Below, piece after piece: positions 3,335 to 46,576 of a stretch of DNA of 49,074 bases. Both the position numbers and the translations under genes were made by a program. Below the pieces are notes generated by a model. It was not told the origin of the DNA, ran no database searches, and was given only the letters and a program-made list of their open reading frames with translations. This stretch comes from Verrucomicrobiota bacterium (GTDB lineage Bacteria > Verrucomicrobiota > Verrucomicrobiia > Limisphaerales > SIBE01): contig VHCZ01000014.1 in assembly GCA_016871535.1 (NCBI GenBank), positions 1 to 49,074 on the forward strand, given 5' to 3'. How positions within the stretch are numbered: position 1 is the stretch's first letter; every line of letters starts with the position of its first letter.

Positions 3335-3490
3335 ACGCGCCCTTCCCCCTCACCCCGGCCCTCTCCCTCAGGGAGAGGGAGAATCGGTCTCCGCGTCGGC
3401 CAGAGATGCGCGCATCCAGTTTCTCTCGCGCGGCAGTCGGAATCCCCTCTCCTTGGGGAGAGGGACAGGGTGAGGGAGAAGAGGGCGCAA
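3335..3490. repeat. CCCTCTCCCTCAGGGAGAGGG-type palindromic repeat pair
   Basis: Two hairpin-forming units, CTCTCCCTCAGGGAGAG near 3361 and CTCTCCTTGGGGAGAG near 3449, flanked by CCCTCACCC and GGGTGAGGG so that the block is itself an inverted repeat. Close relatives occur at about 15447-15515 and 15735-15775. It fills the gap between the epimerase gene and the next dehydrogenase gene. Confidence 0.8.
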
Positions 3491-5749: not shown

Positions 5750-5849
5750 GGTGGAACAGGCCACTGGCCTGTTACGGCAGGCTACCAGCCTGACGCGCTT
5801 TGGGGTGGCAGGTTGCCACCCGCAACGGGCTGGTAGCCCGTTCCACCCA
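5750..5849. repeat. Family C palindromic repeat
   Basis: Starts GTGGAACAGGCCACTGGCC and ends GGGCTGGTAGCCCGTTCCAC, with GGCAGGTTGCCACC inside. The outer ends pair (GTGGAAC with GTTCCAC). A shorter copy lies at 36929-36995. It separates the methyltransferase gene from the CmcI-type gene. Confidence 0.85.
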
Positions 5850-5874
5850 TTTTTCAAACACGCCCTTTGACGCC

Positions 5875-7784: not shown

Positions 7785-7927
7785 TCAGTTGCCAGTTGTC
7801 AGTCATCAGCATAGCGCTCACTTTTTATCGAATACTGGTCGCCGAACACTGATTACTGACAACTGACAACTGACAACTGATCACTGACAACTGATCACTG
7901 ACAACTGATCACTGACAACTGATCACC
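7785..7927. repeat. CTGACAA/TGATCA tandem and inverted repeat between convergent genes
   Basis: About three copies of the 14-base unit GATCACTGACAACT (from about 7879) preceded by 7-base ACTGACA units. The left part (CAGTTGCCAGTTGTCAGT) pairs with the right units, so a long hairpin can form. It lies between two convergent genes and could act as a bidirectional terminator (inference). Related short pieces occur near 18025 and 18703 (GTGGTCAGTAATCAGT). Confidence 0.8.
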
Positions 7928-10759
7928 GATCACCGGACAACGCCTCCCGCATGCGGTCCAGGAGCGTGTGAACTTGGAATGGCTTCTGAAGGAACCCCGC
8001 CAGCCCTTTGCCAGCGAACCGCGCGATGGCCTCTTGCTGATCGAAGCCGCTCATCAGCATCACGCGCACGCCCGGGCGAATGACTTTGAGCGCCTGGAAG
8101 GTTTGGCTTCCATCAAGCTGCGGCATGGTCAGATCCAAGAGCACGGCGACGAAATGATCCGGGTCGCGCTGGAAAATCTGGAGCGCTTCTCTCCCGTCTT
8201 TGGCCAGGACGGGGTCGAATCCCAGGCGGCGGAGCGATTGTGCCGCGACGCGCCGCACAGGTTCCTCGTCATCCACGACCAGAACTGTGCCCGACCCGCG
8301 CCACTCTCGGAGATCTGTTTTCGTGTCTGAATGGGCTGGTTTCAAGGTCGCCGTCGCCACCGGCAACAACAAGCGAAACGCCGATCCGCGTCCGAGCTGG
8401 CTGGTGACTTTGAGCGCGCCATTGTGTCCACGCACGATGCCGAGCACGGCCGCCAATCCCAGACCGCGCCCTGTGAATTTGGTTGTGAAGAACGGATCGA
8501 AAATCTTGCTGATCGTTTCCGCGCTCATGCCGCAGCCCGTATCCGCGATCTCCAGGAAGACATAGTCCCCTTCGGGAATTTCCGGCGCAAGAATGGTGCC
8601 CGCCAGATATTCGCGGCTGGCTCGCATCACGCCCGTCGAAACCCGGATGGCGCCCGTGTTCTCACCGATTGCTTCGGAGGCGTTGATGACCAGGTTCATG
8701 ATGACCTGGCGGATTTGCGTCGCGTCGGCTTCCACCGGCGGAAGTCCCGCGGCGAGGTTGAGATCGAGAGAGACCTTTTTGCTGATGGATAGCCGGAGCA
8801 AATTGAGCGAATCCTGCACGACGGCGCTCACGTCCAGGGCTTGCACCAGAAGTTGTCCTTTGCCCGAATACGCGAGCATTTGCTTGCACAGGTCCGCGGC
8901 CCGCAAGGAAGCCGTCTCGATCTCGGTCAAACCTTCCTGCAGGGGGGAGTCCGCGGCCAGATCCAATTTGGCGAGCGACGCGTGGCAGAGGATGCCCGTG
9001 AGCAGATTGTTGAAATCGTGGGCGATGCCGCCCGCCATGACGCCGAGGCTTTCCAGCTTCGCCGCTTCCTGCAGTTTCCGGTTCAACCGCTGCCGCTCCT
9101 GTTCGGCCAGCTTGCGTTCCGTGATATCGCGGAACATGGCGACGACGGCGGAACCTTCGCGATCTTTGAAAGGCGCGGCGGCGACTTCCACTTCCACGGC
9201 GCGACCGTCGAGCCGAATGATCTTCTGCTCCATCAACGGAGCCGGCACGCCGAGCTCCAGGATTTGCCAGCGCCGCTCCGTCACGGCGTCGTGGTAATCC
9301 GGGTGAATCAAATCGTAGGGGGATTTTCGGAGCAACTGGTCTCGGGAAGTGGCCCCGAACAAATGCACCGCGGCTTCATTGACGAACTCGATGCGGCTCT
9401 TGCGGCTGACCCAAATCGCGTCCGGGCAGACTTCGATCAGGGTGCGCAAGTGCTGTTCGCTTTCGCGCAGGGCGAGCGCCATTTGGCCGCGCTCGCGCGT
9501 CTCCCGTTCGAGCCGGAGGTTGGCTTCTTCGAGCGCCGCGGTTCGTTCGTTCACCAAGGTTTCAACTTGCTGCGAACGCCTCCCGGTCGCGAGCAAGTAC
9601 GCCGTCAACAGCGCGCTGAACGAGAGTCCTGCCACCAGAGCGAACATGGGCTGCGGCGACTTCATGCTCGCCAGGAATTCCTGGGTGGGGCGGAACAAGC
9701 ACAGCCACTCCCGATGGCGCGACATGGCGACCCGTTCGATCCGATGCCGTCCCGAACGGAACTCCTGCTCAATCGACTCGAGGTTCGCGGTCAAATTCGT
9801 CTTCCCCAGAGGCGGCGTAGGCGCGGCCTGAACTCGTGCGGCAGCCGAGGACTTGGGTATGTTTGTCTCGCCGGGGTGATAGTAAAGGAACCGGTTTGTG
9901 GCGTCCGCCGCGGAAGCATCCACGACGAGCAGGTCCAATCCTCCGAACGGGTTCCCCAGGAGCGAAGCTTCCACACCGTCGCCCACGCGAAACATTCCCA
10001 GAACAAAGCCGTGCAAGTGTTCGAGCCGGTCCGCGACAGTTTCTAGTTTTCCTCCGTTGCGCAACACGGCCGCGATCACGGTCACACTGGCCTGGGGATC
10101 GGGCTCTTTGGACAGCGTGATCCGTTCGCTGACAGCGGGTTCATTGTTGGTGCACGAGTCCATCAACCACCCCAGCCGCATGGGATCGGAGGCGACGTCC
10201 CAGCCGAGGAGCTTTCGGTTCTCCTCAATCGGCTCGATGTAATGAAGGGGAAAGTGGTCCGTTCGGGGCTGCGCGGCGACCAACTGGCGGTTCAGCCCGA
10301 ATTCCGTGAACTGGTAATTGGTCAGGCCATCGGCGCGGCCCGCGGCTTCAAGCACGGAGCGCTCGGAAGCTCGGAAGCAGGCACGCGCGGCACCCATTTC
10401 AACGCCTGAATCCCGGGGTTTCGGCTGATCAAGTCCCGCGCGACTTCGCGGAACTGTTCGCGCGACACGTTGGTCGAGGATCGGAACAGATTGCGCAGCG
10501 CAAGCAGGAGTTCGCCGTGGCTGTTGATCCGGTTTTGCAGCGCGCGCATGTGGTTTTCCACGCGCCGGTCGAATTCGGTCCGGATGCGTTGTTCTTGTTG
10601 TTGACGCTGCTTGGCGAAGAGGAGGGCCGTCAACACGACACCGCACAGACCTGCAATCCAGGCGGGCAGGTGCGCACGAAATAACGACTCAACGCTGCTT
10701 CGCCCGCGTCCCCAACGTGGCGGGCGGGCGGACATGAGCCAATTCCATACAAGCTTCAC
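7923..10759 (-). CDS. Hybrid sensor histidine kinase (CHASE-PAS-HisKA-HATPase-REC), frameshifted
   Basis: Membrane sensor kinase in two frames. The 5' part (10759 to about 10362) encodes a transmembrane helix (AWIAGLCGVVLTALLF) and the start of a CHASE sensor domain (RVENHMRALQNRI... IQALKWVPRVPASE). The rest, in another frame to 7923, gives the CHASE end (HYIEPIEENRKLLGWDVASD), a second transmembrane helix (MFALVAGLSFSALLTAYLLA), a PAS domain, an NtrB-like H-box (GGIAHDFNNLL), an HATPase domain (ADTGCGMS, GRGLGLAAVLG) and a receiver domain with phospho-acceptor Asp in LLDLTMP and Lys in FLQKPF. Removing one copy of the 8-base repeat at 10361-10378 rejoins the frames as VPASERSVLEAAGRADG. The gene is therefore either recently inactivated or phase-variable. 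GTG 10759 or ATG 10735 is the start. Confidence 0.85.
10361..10378. repeat. 8-bp tandem duplication causing the kinase frameshift
   Basis: The unit GCTCGGAA is repeated with period 8 across 18 bases. Deleting one unit restores a continuous CHASE domain. Slipped-strand mispairing is the simplest origin. A sequencing or assembly error is possible but less likely for an exact 8-base repeat. Confidence 0.85.
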
Positions 10760-14268: not shown

Positions 14269-14276
14269 GTTTCGAT

Positions 14277-14421
14277 GGGGAGCGCACGCGCCCTCGCGTG
14301 CCGTGGTTGGCGCCCTCGCCGACCACACTCTTCCAGCCGAAAAGCAATCGCTACTGAGATGGTTTCTTCGACGTTCCGACCGGCGAGGCGCCGGTCGGAA
14401 CACGCGACGCGTGTGCTCCCC
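14277..14421. repeat. Family D palindromic repeat, copy 1
   Basis: Begins GGGGAGCGCACGCG and ends CGCGTGTGCTCCCC, with inner arms TTCCGACCGGCGAGG and CGCCGGTCGGAA. Copies at 24742-24890, 41793-41940 and 44442-44591. The following 150 bases to the next gene show nothing recognisable. Confidence 0.9.
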
Positions 14422-14575
14422 AATTCCGCCGGCATCGTTAGCGTTGCCCAGGGGGAGAGTGGCCGTTCACTGGCCGGTCGAGAGTCTTCATGATGGGCAA
14501 CTAACCAACTGAACGCCGCATTCAATCATTTACACGGCCTCTCTCGGCATCTTTCGTATGCGCCAGGCCCAGTAT

Positions 14576-17500
14576 TCAAGTGTCTGTCGCCTCCAGCGCC
14601 TCCGCCAAGACTTCCGCCATGTGGCGGGGACGGAACGGCGTCAGGTGTTCGATTTGATGGCGACAGCTTGTGCCGGAGGCGGCCAGAACCGTTCCCGGCG
14701 GTTGATGGCGCAGTTTTTCGACAAGCGGCTGGGCGACTTTCAACGACAATTCGTATTTGGAATCGAGCGCGCCGAACGCTCCGGCCATCCCGCAACAGCC
14801 GGTGTCGAGCAAAGTCACTTTCCGTCCGGGCAAACGCTGAGCCAACCGAACCATGTATGACGGGTTGGTCAAAGACTTGGCGTGACAATGCGCGTGAATC
14901 GCGACATGGCCGGACTGGTGGCTGAAGCGGAGCGCGTCCGGCTCGCGACTCAGCAAGCCTTCCACAAATTGCTCGAAGAGAAAGCAACGCTTCGCGGCTT
15001 CGTCAGCGCCAGGCAGACCCAGTTCGCGATAGTCCTCCGCGAACATCGAATAGCAGGATGGTTCCAGGAAGATGATGGAAACATCACCCGAAACGCGGGG
15101 CGCGGACGCCCCGCGAACCCGCAGGCTGGAAGCCCACCCCACATTTGCGGATTGCCGATTGCGGATTGCGGATTCGGTCTGATTGAGGAGTTGGAGATTG
15201 TGTCGGCCCAAACGCGCGGCTTCGTCGAGGTTGCCCTGGCTAAAGGCAGGGCGGCCGCAACAGCGTCTGGAGCGCGGAAGCAAAACTTCAAAACCCGCCG
15301 CTTCCAACACGGCCAATGCGGCCCGGCCAATGTGCGGTTCATAATAGCGCACGAAGGTGTCGTCCCAGAGAATCACCGGCCCGCGCGTGGGTCGGTTCGG
15401 CAATTCATCGCTGCCAGTCACTAAAGCCTTAGCGATTTGTCCGCCGCGTTCCCCCTCTCCCGTTCCCTCTCCCCCTCGGAAGGGGAGAGGGTGTCCGCAG
15501 GACGGGAGAGGGGGACGTTCGTGGAAAGTTCCCTTGGTCTCGGAACCAGGCACTCGGCCCATGAACCCGGTAGGACGAGTCCGTCCCGGCGAGCCGCTCG
15601 ACGTGGGTGGAACACGTCCGACTCGGCTCGCTGGGGACAGGCTCGCCCTACCATCTGGTTCATGGGAAGGGAGAAGCGATTTCAGCGCCCGGCCAAGAAT
15701 CGCGGCGCCTCTTTGAACGAGCGCGGCAAAAGTATTTCCCTCCCCTTGGGGAGAGGGCCAGGGTGAGGGGAAAGCGAGCGGTCGTGGTCCGTTGACGTTG
15801 GAAGCCGCGCGACGCTCAAACCAATAATCGAATCGTTCCCCGGCGAATGGAGGAAACGGGCGCCTGGCGGAGAGGCCGAGCGTCAATGCGAGCAGACGCC
15901 GCAACCATCGCCACTGCAAACTGGCGTTCGCAACTCCCGGCATCAAACACCCGATTCGGCCGAGCGCATCCACGTCGCTGAGCAGTCGTTCGCGCAGCGG
16001 CAATCCGTCCCGCTGATGCCGCGCGTGCAGGAACTCCGCCTTGAGCAAAGCCATGTTCACGTTCGACGGGCACTCGGTGGTGCACGCCTTGCACGCGAGA
16101 CAATTGCTCAAGGCTGCCTCCAGTTCGGCAGATCGCAGCGCATCCCGGCCATCGATTCCACGCCGCTCCAGAACAGCCCGGATCGCGTTGGCGCGCCCGC
16201 GCGTGGACATGATTTCTTCGCCGGTCACGAGGAACGTCGGACACATCGTGGGCGCGTCTTTGCGGCAACCGCCGCAGCCGTTGCACTGTTCGAGATTCCG
16301 GACGAACGATCCGTCCTTGGCCGCGAAAGCCAGCATGGGTTCGAACGGCAATTTCAGCTCATAATCTCCGCTCAGGCGAAGCCGCGTGTCGATTTTGAAT
16401 CGCCCGTCCGGAATGATCTTGCCGGGGTTGAACCGATTCTGCGGATCGAACGACGCCTTGATTTCGCGCAGCACGCCGATCAATTCCTCGCCGAGCTGCT
16501 CCGGCATGTACTCGGTGCGGGCGATCCCCACGCCGTGCTCCGCCGCCAGCGATCCTTTGAACTGGCGCACAAGAGCCGACACCTCATCGCTCACCTGCCG
16601 GAATTTCTTCAGATCGCTCGCGTGGTGCAGATCCAGCACGGGACGCACATGAAGAAGCCCCGAGGCGGCGTGCCCGTAATAGCAGGCGCTCAAGCCGAGC
16701 AACTTCATGATCGATTCCAGACCTGCGACGTAATCGGGCAAGCGTTCGGGGCGAACGGCCGTGTCCTCGACGCCCGTGACCGGTTTGGCGTCGCCTTTGC
16801 ATCCCGTCAGGAGCGAGAGGCCGGCCTTGCGCAACGACCAGACCAGATTCATCTCCGCCGCCGTTTGCAGAATCGTTTTGCGCAGGCCAAGCTTCCGCCG
16901 GGCAAACGCCGCCAGCCGATCTTCCACGTCGTCGAAAAACTCAACGATGAGGATCGATTCGCACGGCCTGGCGTCGAGTTCGAGAAGATCGCGCGCACCT
17001 TTGAAGTTCAATTGGCCTTTGGTCTGGTCGAACAAGACCCGGTCGATGTGCTCGATGGCCGCGGGTTTCAGATCGAGCAATTCAACCGTGGCCTGCATCG
17101 CCTCCGCAACTGACGCGAAAAAAATCAGTCCCAGCCCTTTTTGTTTGGGCAGCGAAACAATCTTCAATTCCGCGGACATGATGGCAGCCAGCGTTCCTTC
17201 GCTGCCCGAGAGAAGATCAGCTAAATTACCCGGCTGGCGCAGCCATCGATCCAGTCCGTAGCCGGGCCAGCGCTTCAACAGGCCGGCCGGCATGCGTTCG
17301 GAAATCACGGTGGCATGATTTCGGATCAGTTTGTTCGTCAGGGCGCGCTGGGCGCGCAGGGTGTCGTGTTCGGGGCCGATGATTTCGACCCGGCCATCCG
17401 CGAGCACGATTTCCAGCGCGTGAACGTGGTCCGCCGTCGTGCCATAGAACGCAGTGTGTGAGCCGGAAGAATTGTTCGCAATCATGCCGCCGAGCGTGGC

Positions 17501-17902
17501 GCGCGAACTCGTCGCCACGTCCGGTCCGAAACGGAATCCGTGCGGCTGGAGAAACGCGTTGAGTTGATCCAGCACGACGCCGGCGCCCACGCGCACCGTG
17601 CGTTTCTCCAGATTCAACTCGGTGATCTGGCGGTTGAACCGGGCAAACTCGACGATCAAGCCCTCGCCAATCGCGCCGCCCACCAGTCCCGTGCCTGCGC
17701 CGCGGGGGGTGATGGAGAGGCCTGTGTCCGCCGCGGCTCGAATGACTGCGCTGGCCTGGCCGGCGTTGCGCGGAAAAGCCACACCCACGGGCTCGATCTG
17801 ATAGATCGAAGCATCGGTCGCATAGAGCTGCCGCGTGAGATTATCGAACGCCACGTCGCAGCCTGCGGAAGCGATGTTTCGTTGCTGTTGAGTCCAGGTC
17901 AT
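14576..17902 (-). CDS. FAD-linked oxidase/4Fe-4S/CCG-domain oxidoreductase (YdiJ/D-2-hydroxyacid dehydrogenase type) with in-frame repeat insertions
   Basis: 1108-residue fusion. An FAD-binding PCMH domain (ITPRGAGTGLVGGAIGEG, DVATSSRATLGGMIANNSSG) is followed by an FAD-oxidase C domain ending near AEHGVGIARTEYMP. Two 4Fe-4S sites follow (CNGCGGCRKDAPTMCP and CLACKACTTECP), then CCG/heterodisulfide-reductase-like cysteine motifs (LWDDTFVRYYEPHIG, RRCCGRPAFSQG, FLEPSCYSMFAEDY, LLDTGCCGMAGAFG). Such enzymes oxidise D-lactate, glycolate or D-2-hydroxyglutarate and pass electrons on. ATG 17902 gives the usual MTWTQQQRNIA start. Two foreign stretches interrupt the CCG part: roughly residues 702-826 and 907-938, both encoded by interspersed repeats, with the frame kept and all cysteine motifs present. 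Whether the enlarged protein folds is unknown. Confidence 0.9.
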   Translation of the reverse strand: MTWTQQQRNIASAGCDVAFDNLTRQLYATDASIYQIEPVGVAFPRNAGQASAVIRAAADTGLSITPRGAGTGLVGGAIGEGLIVEFARFNRQITELNLEKRTVRVGAGVVLDQLNAFLQPHGFRFGPDVATSSRATLGGMIANNSSGSHTAFYGTTADHVHALEIVLADGRVEIIGPEHDTLRAQRALTNKLIRNHATVISERMPAGLLKRWPGYGLDRWLRQPGNLADLLSGSEGTLAAIMSAELKIVSLPKQKGLGLIFFASVAEAMQATVELLDLKPAAIEHIDRVLFDQTKGQLNFKGARDLLELDARPCESILIVEFFDDVEDRLAAFARRKLGLRKTILQTAAEMNLVWSLRKAGLSLLTGCKGDAKPVTGVEDTAVRPERLPDYVAGLESIMKLLGLSACYYGHAASGLLHVRPVLDLHHASDLKKFRQVSDEVSALVRQFKGSLAAEHGVGIARTEYMPEQLGEELIGVLREIKASFDPQNRFNPGKIIPDGRFKIDTRLRLSGDYELKLPFEPMLAFAAKDGSFVRNLEQCNGCGGCRKDAPTMCPTFLVTGEEIMSTRGRANAIRAVLERRGIDGRDALRSAELEAALSNCLACKACTTECPSNVNMALLKAEFLHARHQRDGLPLRERLLSDVDALGRIGCLMPGVANASLQWRWLRRLLALTLGLSARRPFPPFAGERFDYWFERRAASNVNGPRPLAFPSPWPSPQGEGNTFAALVQRGAAILGRALKSLLPSHEPDGRASLSPASRVGRVPPTSSGSPGRTRPTGFMGRVPGSETKGTFHERPPLPSCGHPLPFRGGEGTGEGERGGQIAKALVTGSDELPNRPTRGPVILWDDTFVRYYEPHIGRAALAVLEAAGFEVLLPRSRRCCGRPAFSQGNLDEAARLGRHNLQLLNQTESAIRNRQSANVGWASSLRVRGASAPRVSGDVSIIFLEPSCYSMFAEDYRELGLPGADEAAKRCFLFEQFVEGLLSREPDALRFSHQSGHVAIHAHCHAKSLTNPSYMVRLAQRLPGRKVTLLDTGCCGMAGAFGALDSKYELSLKVAQPLVEKLRHQPPGTVLAASGTSCRHQIEHLTPFRPRHMAEVLAEALEATDT
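15088..15180. repeat. Repeat block inside the oxidoreductase gene (second insertion)
   Basis: Two units: a palindrome CGCGGGGCGCGGACGCCCCGCG followed by GGCTGGAAGCC, and a short tandem of ATTGCGGATTGC units. It is translated in frame between LQLL and DVSIIFLEPSC of the enzyme, adding about 31 residues that family members lack. Confidence 0.8.
15425..15795. repeat. Repeat cluster inside the oxidoreductase gene (first insertion), including family A copy 3
   Basis: Contains a CCCTCTCCC...GGGGAGAGGG unit (about 15447-15515), family A copy 3 (15569-15652) with its extended flanks GCACTCGGCCCATGAACC and TTCATGGGAAGG, and another CCTTGGGGAGAGG unit (about 15735-15775). The block encodes about 120 residues rich in Pro, Gly, Arg and Ser between FDYWFERR and RGPVILWDD, with no stop codon in the gene's frame. 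Confidence 0.88.
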
Positions 17903-24741: not shown

Positions 24742-24890
24742 GGGGAGCACACGCGCCTCACGTGTTCCGACTGGCGCCTCGCCAGCCGGAACGTGGTTTC
24801 AAACACGGTACAGAGTGGGACGGCTTCAGTCCGATTGAATGGAGTCGGCGAGGGCGCCGACTCCAACACGCGGGGCGCGTGCGCTCCCCA
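24742..24890. repeat. Family D palindromic repeat, copy 2
   Basis: GGGGAGCACACGCG to CGCGTGCGCTCCCC, with inner arms GGAGTCGGCGAGGGCGCCGACTCC. It fills the gap between the epimerase and sulfatase genes together with the family G unit. Confidence 0.88.
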
Positions 24891-36928: not shown

Positions 36929-36995
36929 GGCTGGAACAGGCCACTGGTTCGGCGGCAGGTTGCCGCCGCAAACGGGCTGGTAGCCCGTTCCACCC
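36929..36995. repeat. Family C palindromic repeat, short copy
   Basis: GGCTGGAACAGGCCACTGG to GGCTGGTAGCCCGTTCCACC. The middle unit of the 5750 copy is shortened. It separates the permease and ATPase genes. Confidence 0.85.
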
Positions 36996-37018
36996 ATCTG
37001 AACTTTGAACCTTAAACT

Positions 37019-37819: not shown

Positions 37820-37852
37820 CGCCGCAACCAAATCGTTACACCGTTACTGATC

Positions 37853-38055
37853 AGACCGTGGGATTGACGACAGATCGACAGCAGAACCGTAGCGCAGATT
37901 TTCAATCTGCTGTATCGCCGATTTCCAATCGGCAGGGCGCCGGCAAGTCCCAGCGGGCTCGGACTGGGAGACGCCCCGCAGAATACAATTCTGCGATACG
38001 GCAGAGTGCAACTCTGCGCTGCGAGCTTTGTCCTCCATCCCGCGGACCAAGCAGT
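37853..38055. repeat. Family F hairpin-array repeat, copy 1
   Basis: Four short hairpins: 37894-37910 (GCAGATTTTCAATCTGC), 37917-37933 (GCCGATTTCCAATCGGC), 37977-37995 (CGCAGAATACAATTCTGCG) and 38001-38017 (GCAGAGTGCAACTCTGC), joined by TGTATCG or GATACGG linkers, with a TCCCAG...CTGGGA stem in the middle. Two inverted copies lie at 45949-46121 and 46190-46362. The rest of the gap to 38214 shows no gene. Confidence 0.9.
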
Positions 38056-38214
38056 ATCTCACGGCCTCTTAGCCGATTACTGGGTACTGATTACTTTGGT
38101 TGCGGCGAAACCACGCTGGGTTCATCCGTGTTCATTTTTGGCCCGGTGCCTTCTCAACTTACCAGCGCTTTGTTACGAGATTGACGGTGACGAAACGGAT
38201 CGGACCTGCCTAAC

Positions 38215-41792: not shown

Positions 41793-41940
41793 GGGGAGCG
41801 CACGCGCCCCGCGTGCAGCAGTTGGCGCCCTCGCCGACCGCACTTTTCCCTTGGAAAGCGCATCGTTTGATCAGACGGGTTTCTTGACGAGCCGACCGGC
41901 GAGGCGCCGGCCGGAACACGCGAGGGCGCGTGTGCTCCCC
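41793..41940. repeat. Family D palindromic repeat, copy 3
   Basis: GGGGAGCGCACGCG to CGCGTGTGCTCCCC, between two convergent genes, 10 bases from the stop of the nuclease gene. Confidence 0.9.
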
Positions 41941-41950
41941 ACGCATTTGC

Positions 41951-42994
41951 TCAGTTGCTCTTGCCCTGCTTCCGCCGCTGCAAATGTTCCCGCAGATAAG
42001 TGTCCGGACCCGCTTGTTTCCAGGCGGAATACCACAGGTCGCCGAGCATCTGCCCGGCTTTGATCACCTGACCGCGCAGGAACTCGCGGCCTTCCAGGCC
42101 GGCCTTTCCTTCGCCGCTCAGTTTGCCTTCCTTCTCCAATTGATACAGCGGCTCCACCAGGCGATGCTGCCCCTGAATGAAACGAATCACGTCGGGGAAA
42201 ATGTCTTCGGGCTTCGCGGCGGCGGCGTCGGCGCCCAGGAGTTGTGCCGGACGCAATCGGCCTTGAAATTCCGAAGCGCGGTCCAGCCCGGCCTTCTGAA
42301 AAAAACCGCCGTCAATCCAGGAATGGAATGTGCGATTCGTGGTGTAACCCTGCGGGTTGCGGCCCACCCAGCCGTTGAAATGTTTGGTCGTGTGCAACGG
42401 TTGCGCCGCGTCGCCGACGAAATGGCCCATGACACCCATAAGATAAAGGACATTCTGCCGGGCGTTCTCGATTTCTTCCGGCGTGCCCAACTCTTCGTAA
42501 ACCCGCAAGTAGGAGAACGCTGATTTGAGCTTGCTGTAGGACTCCGTGATCGTCCACGGGAGAAAACCGATCAGCGCGCGCGTGCGCGCCGGATCTTTGC
42601 TCGGATCGATCGTGGGAAATTTCCGGGCATTGGCAGCCCGGCCCGCCGCGAGTTGTTCGGTGAATTCGTAGCGGAAATGGCTGAGGGTTGAAGCCGTCAA
42701 GCCGTAGTCCGCCAGTTCTTCGATGTCGAGGTAATGATCCGGGGAACTGGCGTGGCGGAAAGGCAGGTCCTGGCTGTTGCGCCAGCGGTCCGGCTCGCCG
42801 CTCAAGAACAGGATTCGTTCCCTGGCGCCGGGCGAATGCACGAATTGGGGGAAATCTCTGGGCAAGCTCAGCAGCGCCAGTTCATTGACCAACCGATGCC
42901 CTTCATAGTCCCAGGCCAACGCGGCGACAGGGACAATCAATACCAGCAAGAGCCGGCCATGGTTCTTGGAAAGCTCCCTTGGTTTCAAACCCAC
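41951..42994 (-). CDS. Exported S1/P1-type zinc nuclease, 5' end formed by a repeat
   Basis: 347 residues in total. Signal peptide LLLVLIVPVAALA would release a mature N-terminus W-D-Y-E-G-H, matching the Trp1 and His6 zinc ligands of S1/P1 nucleases. Later ligands are also present: HFVGDAAQPLH (H-x3-D and H) and FHSWID (H-x3-D). These enzymes cut single-stranded nucleic acids and remove 3' phosphates, outside the cytoplasm. The first residues (GTG 42994, MGLKPRELSKNHGR) lie within the flank of family A copy 5. The start is therefore donated by the repeat. No ATG exists closer, and a TTG six bases on is the alternative. Upstream the frame is open to 43372 through repeats only. Confidence 0.82.
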   Translation of the reverse strand: MGLKPRELSKNHGRLLLVLIVPVAALAWDYEGHRLVNELALLSLPRDFPQFVHSPGARERILFLSGEPDRWRNSQDLPFRHASSPDHYLDIEELADYGLTASTLSHFRYEFTEQLAAGRAANARKFPTIDPSKDPARTRALIGFLPWTITESYSKLKSAFSYLRVYEELGTPEEIENARQNVLYLMGVMGHFVGDAAQPLHTTKHFNGWVGRNPQGYTTNRTFHSWIDGGFFQKAGLDRASEFQGRLRPAQLLGADAAAAKPEDIFPDVIRFIQGQHRLVEPLYQLEKEGKLSGEGKAGLEGREFLRGQVIKAGQMLGDLWYSAWKQAGPDTYLREHLQRRKQGKSN

Positions 42995-43103
42995 GCACTC
43001 GGCCCATGAACCGATCGCCGGTAGGGCGAGTCCGTCCCGGCGGGCCGCTCCACGTGCTTGACACACGTCCGACTCGGCTCGCTGGGGACAAGCTCGTCCT
43101 ACC
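42967..43103. repeat. Family A palindromic repeat, copy 5 with extended left flank
   Basis: Core 43020-43103 (GGTAGGGCGAGTCCG to GTCCTACC). The left flank (GGAAAGCTCCCTTGGTTTC, then GCACTCGGCCCATGAACC) is shared with copy 3 in the oxidoreductase gene. It overlaps the first codons of the S1/P1-type nuclease gene. Confidence 0.88.
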
Positions 43104-43160
43104 GGCAGATTCTTGGGAAGCCTCCACGCTTTCCGAATCGCGCGTTGTAACCATGAGCCA

Positions 43161-43230
43161 GGTAAGGACGCGTTCCACTGCGTCCCCAATCTCTTTGCCG
43201 ACTGTAGGATGGAAGTCAGGGACGGAGTGG
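43161..43230. repeat. Family B palindromic repeat, right end lost
   Basis: GGTAAGGACGCGTTCCACTGCG to GTCAGGGACGGAGTGG. The remaining 140 bases to the upp stop hold no recognisable feature. Confidence 0.85.
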
Positions 43231-43368
43231 TCCGCGTTTCGCTAAGCGAACTTCCCTTCTGGGGAAGCTGATGGCGAGGCTTGGGAAGCGCATCCGTCCC
43301 GACCCGGTTAATGAGAAAGCATCTTCGCATCATACTGGCCGCGCTCATTTGAATTTGATTCATCACCT

Positions 43369-43998
43369 TCACATTGTCCCGAACTGCCGATCCCCCGCGT
43401 CGCCCAGCCCCGGCACGATGTAGTTTCTGGCGTCCAGGTGACTGTCGAGTGCGGCCAGGTGGATAGGCACGTCGGGATGGACGCCCTGCAACCGGGCGAC
43501 GCCTTCCGGCGCTGCGATCAGGGCCATGAACTTGATCCGGCTCACGCCCACGCGCTTCAAAATTGAGATCGCCTCCGTCGCGGAACCGCCGGTGGCCAGC
43601 ATGGGATCGACGACAATTGCCAGGTCGATATGCGCCGGGGACGGCAGCTTGTTGTAGTAGATCACGGGCTGGCAGGTGTCATGGTCGCGGTAAAGTCCGA
43701 GGTGCCAGACACAGGCATTGGGGACCATATCCAGCAACGCCTCGGCCATGCCCAGGCCGGCGCGAAGAATAGGAATCAATCCAATCGTGCCGGAAATCTG
43801 GTGAGCCGTGCATTCCGCGAGCGGCGTTCGCACGGTCAACGGCGCCAGCTTCAAGTCCTGAGTCGCCTCGTAAAACAGGAGGCGAGAAATCTCGCGCACC
43901 AAAGCGCGGAAGGAGTTGGGATCGGTCCCCTGGTCCCGCAGCAACGCCAGCTTGTGCAGCAAGAGCGGGTGGCGGCTGATATGAACGTTTGGGTCCAT
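43369..43998 (-). CDS. upp: Uracil phosphoribosyltransferase
   Basis: 209 residues, the usual size. It joins uracil and PRPP to make UMP. The PRPP-binding loop is VVDPMLATGGSATEAI, with GTIGLIPILRAGLGMAEALL and YYNKLPS upstream, and the uracil-binding C-terminus YIVPGLGDAGDRQFGT. ATG 43998 overlaps the stop of the cytidine deaminase gene by one base (TGATG), which fixes the start and indicates coupling. A longer frame to 44490 is antisense noise. Confidence 0.97.
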   Translation of the reverse strand: MDPNVHISRHPLLLHKLALLRDQGTDPNSFRALVREISRLLFYEATQDLKLAPLTVRTPLAECTAHQISGTIGLIPILRAGLGMAEALLDMVPNACVWHLGLYRDHDTCQPVIYYNKLPSPAHIDLAIVVDPMLATGGSATEAISILKRVGVSRIKFMALIAAPEGVARLQGVHPDVPIHLAALDSHLDARNYIVPGLGDAGDRQFGTM

Positions 43999-44441: not shown

Positions 44442-44591
44442 GGGGAGCGCGCGCGCCTCGCGTGCCGTGATTGGCGCCCCCGCCGACCACACTCTTCGAT
44501 CCGCAAAAGCAATCGTTTGGTGAGACAGTCTTTCCGATGTTCCGACCGGCGAGGGCGCCGGTCGGAACACGCGAGGGCGCGTGTGCTCCCC
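44442..44591. repeat. Family D palindromic repeat, copy 4
   Basis: GGGGAGCGCGCGCG to CGCGTGTGCTCCCC. It occupies nearly the whole gap between the phosphorylase stop and the cdd start, and so sits inside a probable operon. Confidence 0.9.
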
Positions 44592-44594
44592 AGC

Positions 44595-45948: not shown

Positions 45949-46121
45949 TACTGCTTGGTCCGCGGGATGGACGACAAAGCTCGTATCGCAGAGTTGCACT
46001 CTGCCGTATCGCAGATTTGTATTCTGCGGGCGTCTCCCAGTCCGAGCACGCTGGGACTTGCCGGCGCCCTGCCGATTGGAAATCGGCGATACCGCAGATT
46101 GAAAATCTGTTGCGCTACACG
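45949..46121. repeat. Family F hairpin-array repeat, copy 2 (inverted)
   Basis: Hairpins GCAGAGTTGCACTCTGC, GCAGATTTGTATTCTGC (one mismatch), GCCGATTGGAAATCGGC and GCAGATTGAAAATCTG, with the same TCCCAG...CTGGGA stem and linkers as copy 1. Confidence 0.9.
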
Positions 46122-46189
46122 TCACTGATAAACTTGTGGATGCGCTGCCCGCGCTCCTTTCGCGAGTTGTATCAGTGATCGCGTCCACG

Positions 46190-46362
46190 TAGCGCAGAGT
46201 TGCACTCTGCCGTATCGCAGATTTGGAATCTGCGGCACGGCGGCCAATCCGGTGCGGCCGGGCGAGTTTGTCCCGCCGCCGACTACAAGTCGGCGATACG
46301 GCAGATTGAAAATCTGCGCTACGGTTCTCCGGTCGATCTGTCGTCAATCCCACGGTCTGCAC
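46190..46362. repeat. Family F hairpin-array repeat, copy 3 (inverted)
   Basis: Hairpins GCAGAGTTGCACTCTGC, GCAGATTTGGAATCTGC, GCCGACTACAAGTCGGC and GCAGATTGAAAATCTGC. The right flank GGTCGATCTGTCGTCAATCC matches the left flank of copy 1 in inverse. The centre differs from copies 1 and 2. Confidence 0.9.
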
Positions 46363-46576
46363 AGTAACCCAGAGGCGCAAGGGCTGCGTCGTAAAAGGCG
46401 GCCGAGCGTATGAGGTCAACTACAGCGAAGAAGAGATGGTGCAGCATGGACATGAAATCTCGTTCGCCTCCGTGCCTCCGCATGTGGCTCGTGGTCGATG
46501 TTCCATCGCCGGCGCATCCGTTCGCTGGGCTAATCTGACGCTTGAGGGAGGCAGGCTGGAAGCCTGCCCTACTTTG
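46363..46576. other. Spacer with a family G palindrome
   Basis: No gene is recognisable. A family G unit (GAGGCAGGCTGGAAGCCTGCCC, 46547-46573) ends directly before the stop codon of the metallo-hydrolase gene and may act as its terminator. Confidence 0.5.

Follow-up and report, generated by a model that had tools for sequence, protein, structure and literature searches.

Rickettsia palindromic elements are reportedly the subject of work by Ogata et al. from 2000 and 2002. As summarized in PMC10969869, these elements are palindromes of ∼100–150 nt that occur between and inside genes and stand in frame in unrelated conserved genes. Closer in phylogeny, Di Nocera et al. (2013, PMC3733652) described intragenic GTAG/CGTC REPs in many genera, with the greatest abundance in Opitutus terrae, a verrucomicrobium; that system features GTAG/GTGG stem-loops within ORFs, double inserts, hosts such as uvrA and further repair genes, and an association with RAYT transposases. 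The original prediction for the DNA analyzed here likened two in-frame repeat blocks in an oxidoreductase gene to the Rickettsia elements, and the likeness holds: the repeats are in frame in a conserved gene and missing from its homologues. Its further suggestion that nothing of this sort had been described in Verrucomicrobiota does not hold, given the intragenic REPs of Opitutus terrae, and it understated the scale, since repeats in genes are found genome-wide and RAYT transposases are involved as well. In-frame repeat insertion is thus a known kind of event, in this phylum included; what is new here are the families, the size of the inserts, and the loops that are shared between species.

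Two inserts in a YdiJ-like oxidoreductase gene

The window, by which we mean the whole 49,074-nt stretch that was analyzed, comes from a groundwater Verrucomicrobiota bacterium with a 6.7-Mb genome (G000). On its minus strand, a single uninterrupted frame of 1108 codons (14579–17902) runs from an ATG at 17902 to a stop at 14576 and is assigned to the YdiJ/D-lactate dehydrogenase-like proteins from its Pfam domains (FAD-linked oxidase PF01565 and PF02913, 4Fe-4S PF13183, and CCG PF02754), related solved structures in the PDB (D-lactate dehydrogenases, LctD), and kept motifs. As predicted for the FAD, 4Fe-4S, and CCG motifs, all cofactor motifs are intact, and the Cys, His, and FAD cofactor residues are invariant across the 43 sequences compared. 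Insert 1 (15395–15808, minus strand, codons ∼699–836) adds ∼125–134 residues between FDYWFERR and RGPVILWDD, and insert 2 (15083–15184, minus strand, codons ∼907–940) adds ∼25 residues between LQLL and DVSIIFLEPSC. We aligned the protein to 22 homologues from related whole genomes (38–79% identity, most 60–79%). The first interval spans ∼138 residues here versus 4–16 in the homologues, the second ∼34 versus mostly 7–15, and neither insert is present in any of the 22. The same is seen in an 80-locus GTDB set, in which the inserted columns are private to the window sequence and no such insert occurs at either place. These alignments confirm that the repeat blocks lie between the named motifs within one open frame and that YdiJ-type homologues are missing both segments; none of the aligned relatives has homologous peptides at these positions without the repeats. 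We note that in the closest congener (G001, 87%) the oxidoreductase is truncated by a contig edge before the insert site. AlphaFold2 models the core mostly at pLDDT >85, insert 1 mostly at 25–51, and insert 2 near 50; insert 1 is predicted to be a disordered segment. Separately, the oxidoreductase homologue of the soil isolate AV42 (L153) contains three different palindromic in-frame segments in other loops, at ∼2766, 3369, and 3672.

Insert 1 is composed, in order and all on the minus strand, of a family B repeat, a spacer, family A (hairpin plus tail), and a family C repeat. The family B stem-loop (CCCTCACCCTGGCCCTCTCCCCAAGGGGAG, 15736–15780) occurs at 28 unique places in a 0.85-Mb sample of the genome and the family C stem-loop (CCGTCCTGCGGACACCCTCTCCCC..GAGGGGGAGAGGG, 15451–15515) at 25. 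Between them lie the spacer (15667–15735), which is part of composites at other genomic sites, the family A hairpin (15558–15666, reading GRASLSPASRVGRVPPTSSGSPGRTRPT), recognized by fold and copy number, and the family A tail (15517–15557), which completes a unit of ∼138–141 nt seen in tandem arrays at other sites. The B–spacer–A composite recurs on contig C29 of the same genome (84%), a B–spacer pair lies at window positions 3371–3487 (73%), and A–C composites are likewise found elsewhere in the genome; the insert 1 composite is 84–91% similar to the other genomic composites. It had been proposed that at least four repeat units entered this gene. Several units are indeed present, although the existence of B–spacer–A and A–C composites at other sites means that they may have arrived in fewer events.

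Insert 2, also on the minus strand and assigned from its sequence, consists of a CAATCCG-like heptamer run (15148–15175), a GTGG-tagged REP remnant GTGGGGTGGGCTTCCAGCCTGC (15121–15142) that reads VGWASSL and is akin to GTAGGGCAGGCTTCCAGCCTGCC, and a CGCGGGGCG GC palindrome (CGCGGGGCGTCCGCGCCCCGCG, 15094–15115). The element in this insert has a GTRG tag adjoining a short stem-loop and so classifies as a GTAG-type REP. GTGGGGTGGGCTTCCAGCCTGC belongs to the GTAGGGCAGGCTTCCAGCCTGCC family in degenerate form, its stem being shared by 15 genomic copies in the 0.85-Mb sample, and GTAGGGCAGGCTTCCAGCCTGCC and other GTRG families flank RAYT genes in this genome. The GTRG tag is absent from the family B and C consensus sequences, no RAYT was found with, and no transposase could be linked to, family A, B, or C, and the repeat segment has no match in Rfam.

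Family A forms a 109-nt hairpin with an MFE of −89 kcal/mol (z −8.5). Its core starts with GGTAGG and ends with CCTACC, and the two halves pair mutually while neither pairs with itself. The core is present at 74 unique places in the 0.85-Mb sample. A search of relatives found it in 4 of 58 genomes, a single weak match coming from G001 and six from a second congener, G002; near-identical copies (98%) are confined to the window genome, which indicates that the amplification is recent. Across the sample and the window, family A was found in gene interiors five times, and four of these inserts share one reading frame. When family A is considered against MITEs, inverted ends are seen, and no target-site duplication was defined, the DNA of the relatives having diverged too far. 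We also observed tandem arrays of ∼138–170-nt family A units at L066:2–1271 and L085:137–743, several contigs whose ends consist of family A copies or arrays (C30, C141, C172), and a family A copy at window 42962–43121, inside or just upstream of an S1/P1-nuclease-like ORF (41954–43678, minus strand). Other repeats in the window include a 14-nt tandem repeat at 7820–7931 (ACTGATCACTGACA), of which related heptamers are seemingly translated in the UvrA proteins of congeners (SVISRQ), and CGCAGA-type GTAG REP clusters at 37843–38056 and 45949–46368, which form long inverted repeats 8 kb apart.

Repeats within genes across the genome and its relatives

The 0.85-Mb sample was surveyed with a simple gene caller, which gave 730 genes, and hosts were named by Pfam; a strict coding-potential test of the repeat flanks was too insensitive, and gene calls with Pfam were used in its place. 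Palindromic repeats occur here both between and within genes, and in frame in conserved genes that lack them elsewhere. Among 109 clusters of families A, B, and C, 60 are intergenic, which bears out the prediction that the insert repeats also occur between genes; 23 lie within genes, 17 partially so, and 9 tightly between genes of the same strand. Set against a coding fraction of 84.5%, the 23 of 109 show that genes are strongly avoided. About half of the family C clusters fall within genes. Repeated GTRG (GTAG-type) REPs lie within genes in 17 of 90 cases, where they encode peptides such as VGQASSLP and AGWKPALH. The hosts of A/B/C or REP repeats include a kinase, AddA (a UvrD-type helicase), UvrA, MFS, AMP-binding, and PSD/DUF1592 proteins, together with UbiD, PKS, OGG, EamA, glycine dehydrogenase, and another kinase; by our count, ∼24 distinct genes of the 730 sampled (∼3%) bear a repeat. 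Random insertion would be expected to be in frame and open in ∼17–26% of cases (one third times the open fraction). No gene broken by a repeat was found in the sample, and same-strand neighbors proved to be different genes wherever Pfam named both; a broken gene is more easily missed than an open one, and this comparison carries an ascertainment bias. Comparing orthologues with 0.78 Mb of G001 gave no more than 61 pairs, among which a repeat had clearly inserted once, in frame in OGG.

Eleven loci were searched for in six relatives, and nine of these could be aligned. At least some relatives have empty sites in OGG and UnbV and short loops in UbiD and PSD. In the MFS, spermidine-synthase-like, and AddA proteins, G001 or G002 fills the same loop with other repeat-like segments. 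The PSD insert is common to G001 and the window genome and is open in both, with a dN/dS of ∼0.7 compared with 0.10 in its flanks, that is, it evolves almost freely. At 0.3 substitutions per site, a neutral stretch of 63 codons has a ∼28% chance of staying free of stops, so that the lack of stops in the PSD insert, taken alone, is weak evidence. Likewise, the recency of the copy in the window makes its intact frame, by itself, weak evidence of function. The loops that hold differing repeats in congeners, together with the nearly free evolution of the PSD insert, favor tolerance over adaptation.

RAYT domains within essential genes

The window genome has 13 matches to the Y1 transposase, and its own RAYT genes sit between GTAG/GTGG REPs. 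A DinG-like helicase ORF (L072:13723–16797, plus strand, contig C42) includes one RAYT, in frame and between GTAG REPs, which makes an in-frame REPtron. The alanyl-tRNA synthetase (AlaRS) of this genome is a single frame of 1398 codons (L303:1501–5694, plus strand, contig C141 from 5808) in which Pfam recognizes tRNA-synt_2c in three pieces, tRNA_SAD, DHHA1, and two Y1_Tnp domains. AlaRS is single-copy, its domain matches being pieces of one gene in all 12 genomes checked (in G017, over two contigs). The linkers of the AlaRS RAYTs are encoded by REP families that recur in the window. The family AACGGGCTGGTAGCCCGTT, which flanks RAYT 2, is at 5804–5850 (plus strand) with a second copy at 36951–36997, and a palindrome family (GCACACGCGCCCTCGCGTG...) resembling the flanks of RAYT 1 is at 14276–14439 (plus strand), 24837–24889, 41793–41941, and 44456–44592.

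This embedded clade is present in 31 of 293 genomes of the order, and 39 of 39 among the matches listed are in open frames of at least 555 aa. The hosts are AlaRS in 26 genomes, with one or two in-frame RAYTs at two loops (besides the window genome, L304–L307, L312, L337, L339–L343, L346, L351–L354, and L356–L363), threonyl-tRNA synthetase (ThrRS) in 5 (L344, L347, L349, L350, L355), and the PriA helicase in 2 (L364, L365), all but three matches being assigned. Among the AlaRS–RAYT cases, one belongs to a genome that consists of a single contig (G103). When genomes are compared, the RAYT shows a dN of 0.16–0.21 with saturated dS, consistent with purifying selection as protein; HxH is present in all embedded copies, and the Tyr motif, by a strict pattern, in 18 of 20. 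A tree of the RAYTs clusters copies by host-gene site, with 10 changes versus 18.4 when shuffled, several of its forks being weak. The AlphaFold2 model of one AlaRS–RAYT is poor overall (pTM 0.39), yet its RAYT domain is confident and the linkers are disordered. In a search of open-licence papers, nothing specific was found on a RAYT or transposase inside tRNA synthetases. As side observations, the AlaRS with RAYT of G009 (contig C178, L310) is split over two overlapping frames, through a broken gene, a frameshift, or a sequence error, and the ThrRS of the window genome (C24:34608–36761) has a gap ∼67 residues longer than that of G029 at the RAYT site of other genomes.

We consider it somewhat probable that in this order the REP/RAYT system also lives within coding sequences, with one RAYT clade that behaves like an intein without splicing and is sheltered by its essential host gene, and with REPs and hairpins of the window type as smaller relatives or traces of it. 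If true, AlaRS, ThrRS, and PriA genes would shelter transposases that are tethered by repeat-encoded linkers, keep their catalytic motifs, and group by host-gene site across families.

Alternative readings and comparison with known systems

Our main reading, to which we give a probability of roughly 85%, is that palindromic repeats inserted in frame in loops of the oxidoreductase and would be read through as disordered segments, as tolerated mobile DNA and not as an adaptation. Translation of the inserts, retained activity, and the mode of repeat movement are here inferred from sequence. In the mechanism that we propose, nonautonomous palindromic repeats would land in surface loops of the gene, and, with insert lengths that keep the frame and no stop, the ribosome would read through, giving an enzyme with one long disordered loop (∼130 aa) and one short one (∼25 aa). 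For the GTAG/GTGG REPs, the probable agents of movement are the RAYT (Y1 tyrosine) transposases. Frame-breaking insertions would presumably be lost by selection, leaving those in frame in permissive loops.

A recently inactivated pseudogene, in which decay has yet to begin, would fit the family A copies, whose identity to the one in the window reaches 98% and which hence leave little time elapsed. We regard this as unlikely, in that several independent repeat units leave one frame open with the cofactor residues intact, and in-frame inserts occur in many other genes, some of them common to two species, with no broken counterpart found in the sample. The extreme stability of the family A hairpin (−89 kcal/mol) raises another scenario, excision from the RNA or bypassing of the hairpin by the ribosome, since very stable hairpins are the type of structure linked to RNase III cleavage or bypassing. 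Removal before or during translation would make frame and stops irrelevant, whereas the gene insertions found are in frame and open, and the RAYT domains embedded in AlaRS are under purifying selection as protein; we hold such removal to be very improbable.

An adaptive insert, for example one that selection keeps as a functional linker or regulatory segment, finds some encouragement in the in-frame repeat kept in PSD of two species, but a given loop is filled by different repeat families in congeners, the sequence of the PSD insert is nearly unconstrained, and insert 1 is predicted to be disordered, and we accord this reading only a slim chance. The genome is a short-read metagenome assembly, and contigs that end in family A copies show that assembly does break there. 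A chimaera at the repeats is nevertheless extremely unlikely: the contig links both gene halves in one frame, other alignments within the genome are to paralogues or repeat matches, the insert composite is just 84–91% like other composites, and a related in-frame RAYT insertion stands in the single-contig genome G103.

On our reading of this locus, a free-living bacterium would, through tolerated in-frame insertion, make protein straight from mobile DNA across its genome (∼3% of sampled genes). Sister species that fill one loop with different repeats provide natural replicates for asking which protein loops can accommodate an insert and how REPs are mobilized. How single-copy RAYTs last over such long periods is an old question, to which those embedded in essential tRNA synthetases suggest one answer; their presence there also predicts synthetase proteins that bear a transposase. 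As in the REPtron/RAYT arrangement of a Y1 transposase between REPs, the RAYTs of this genome lie between GTAG REPs, and HxH and Tyr are kept in nearly all embedded copies; the AlaRS/ThrRS/PriA clade differs in that all copies found sit in frame in the interior of long ORFs. Inteins are similar as in-frame passengers at recurrent sites of conserved essential proteins, which makes clean loss hard, whereas here no splicing domain is recognized by Pfam and the passenger is apparently retained in the protein. With the Rickettsia palindromic elements, the repeats share their palindromic form, their presence between and inside genes, and their in-frame position in unrelated conserved genes. They differ in phylum, in residing in a 6.7-Mb genome, in comprising several unrelated families, in the presence of a REP/RAYT system, in also hitting essential genes, and, as far as seen without a direct comparison, in sequence. 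The intragenic REPs of Opitutus terrae are from the same phylum and share GTAG/GTGG stem-loops within ORFs, double inserts, hosts that include uvrA and further repair genes, and the association with RAYTs. Relative to those REPs, families B and C, and apparently family A, fall outside the canonical GTAG type, the inserts reach ∼130 aa, congeners place different families in the same loop, and whole RAYT domains are embedded in host proteins.
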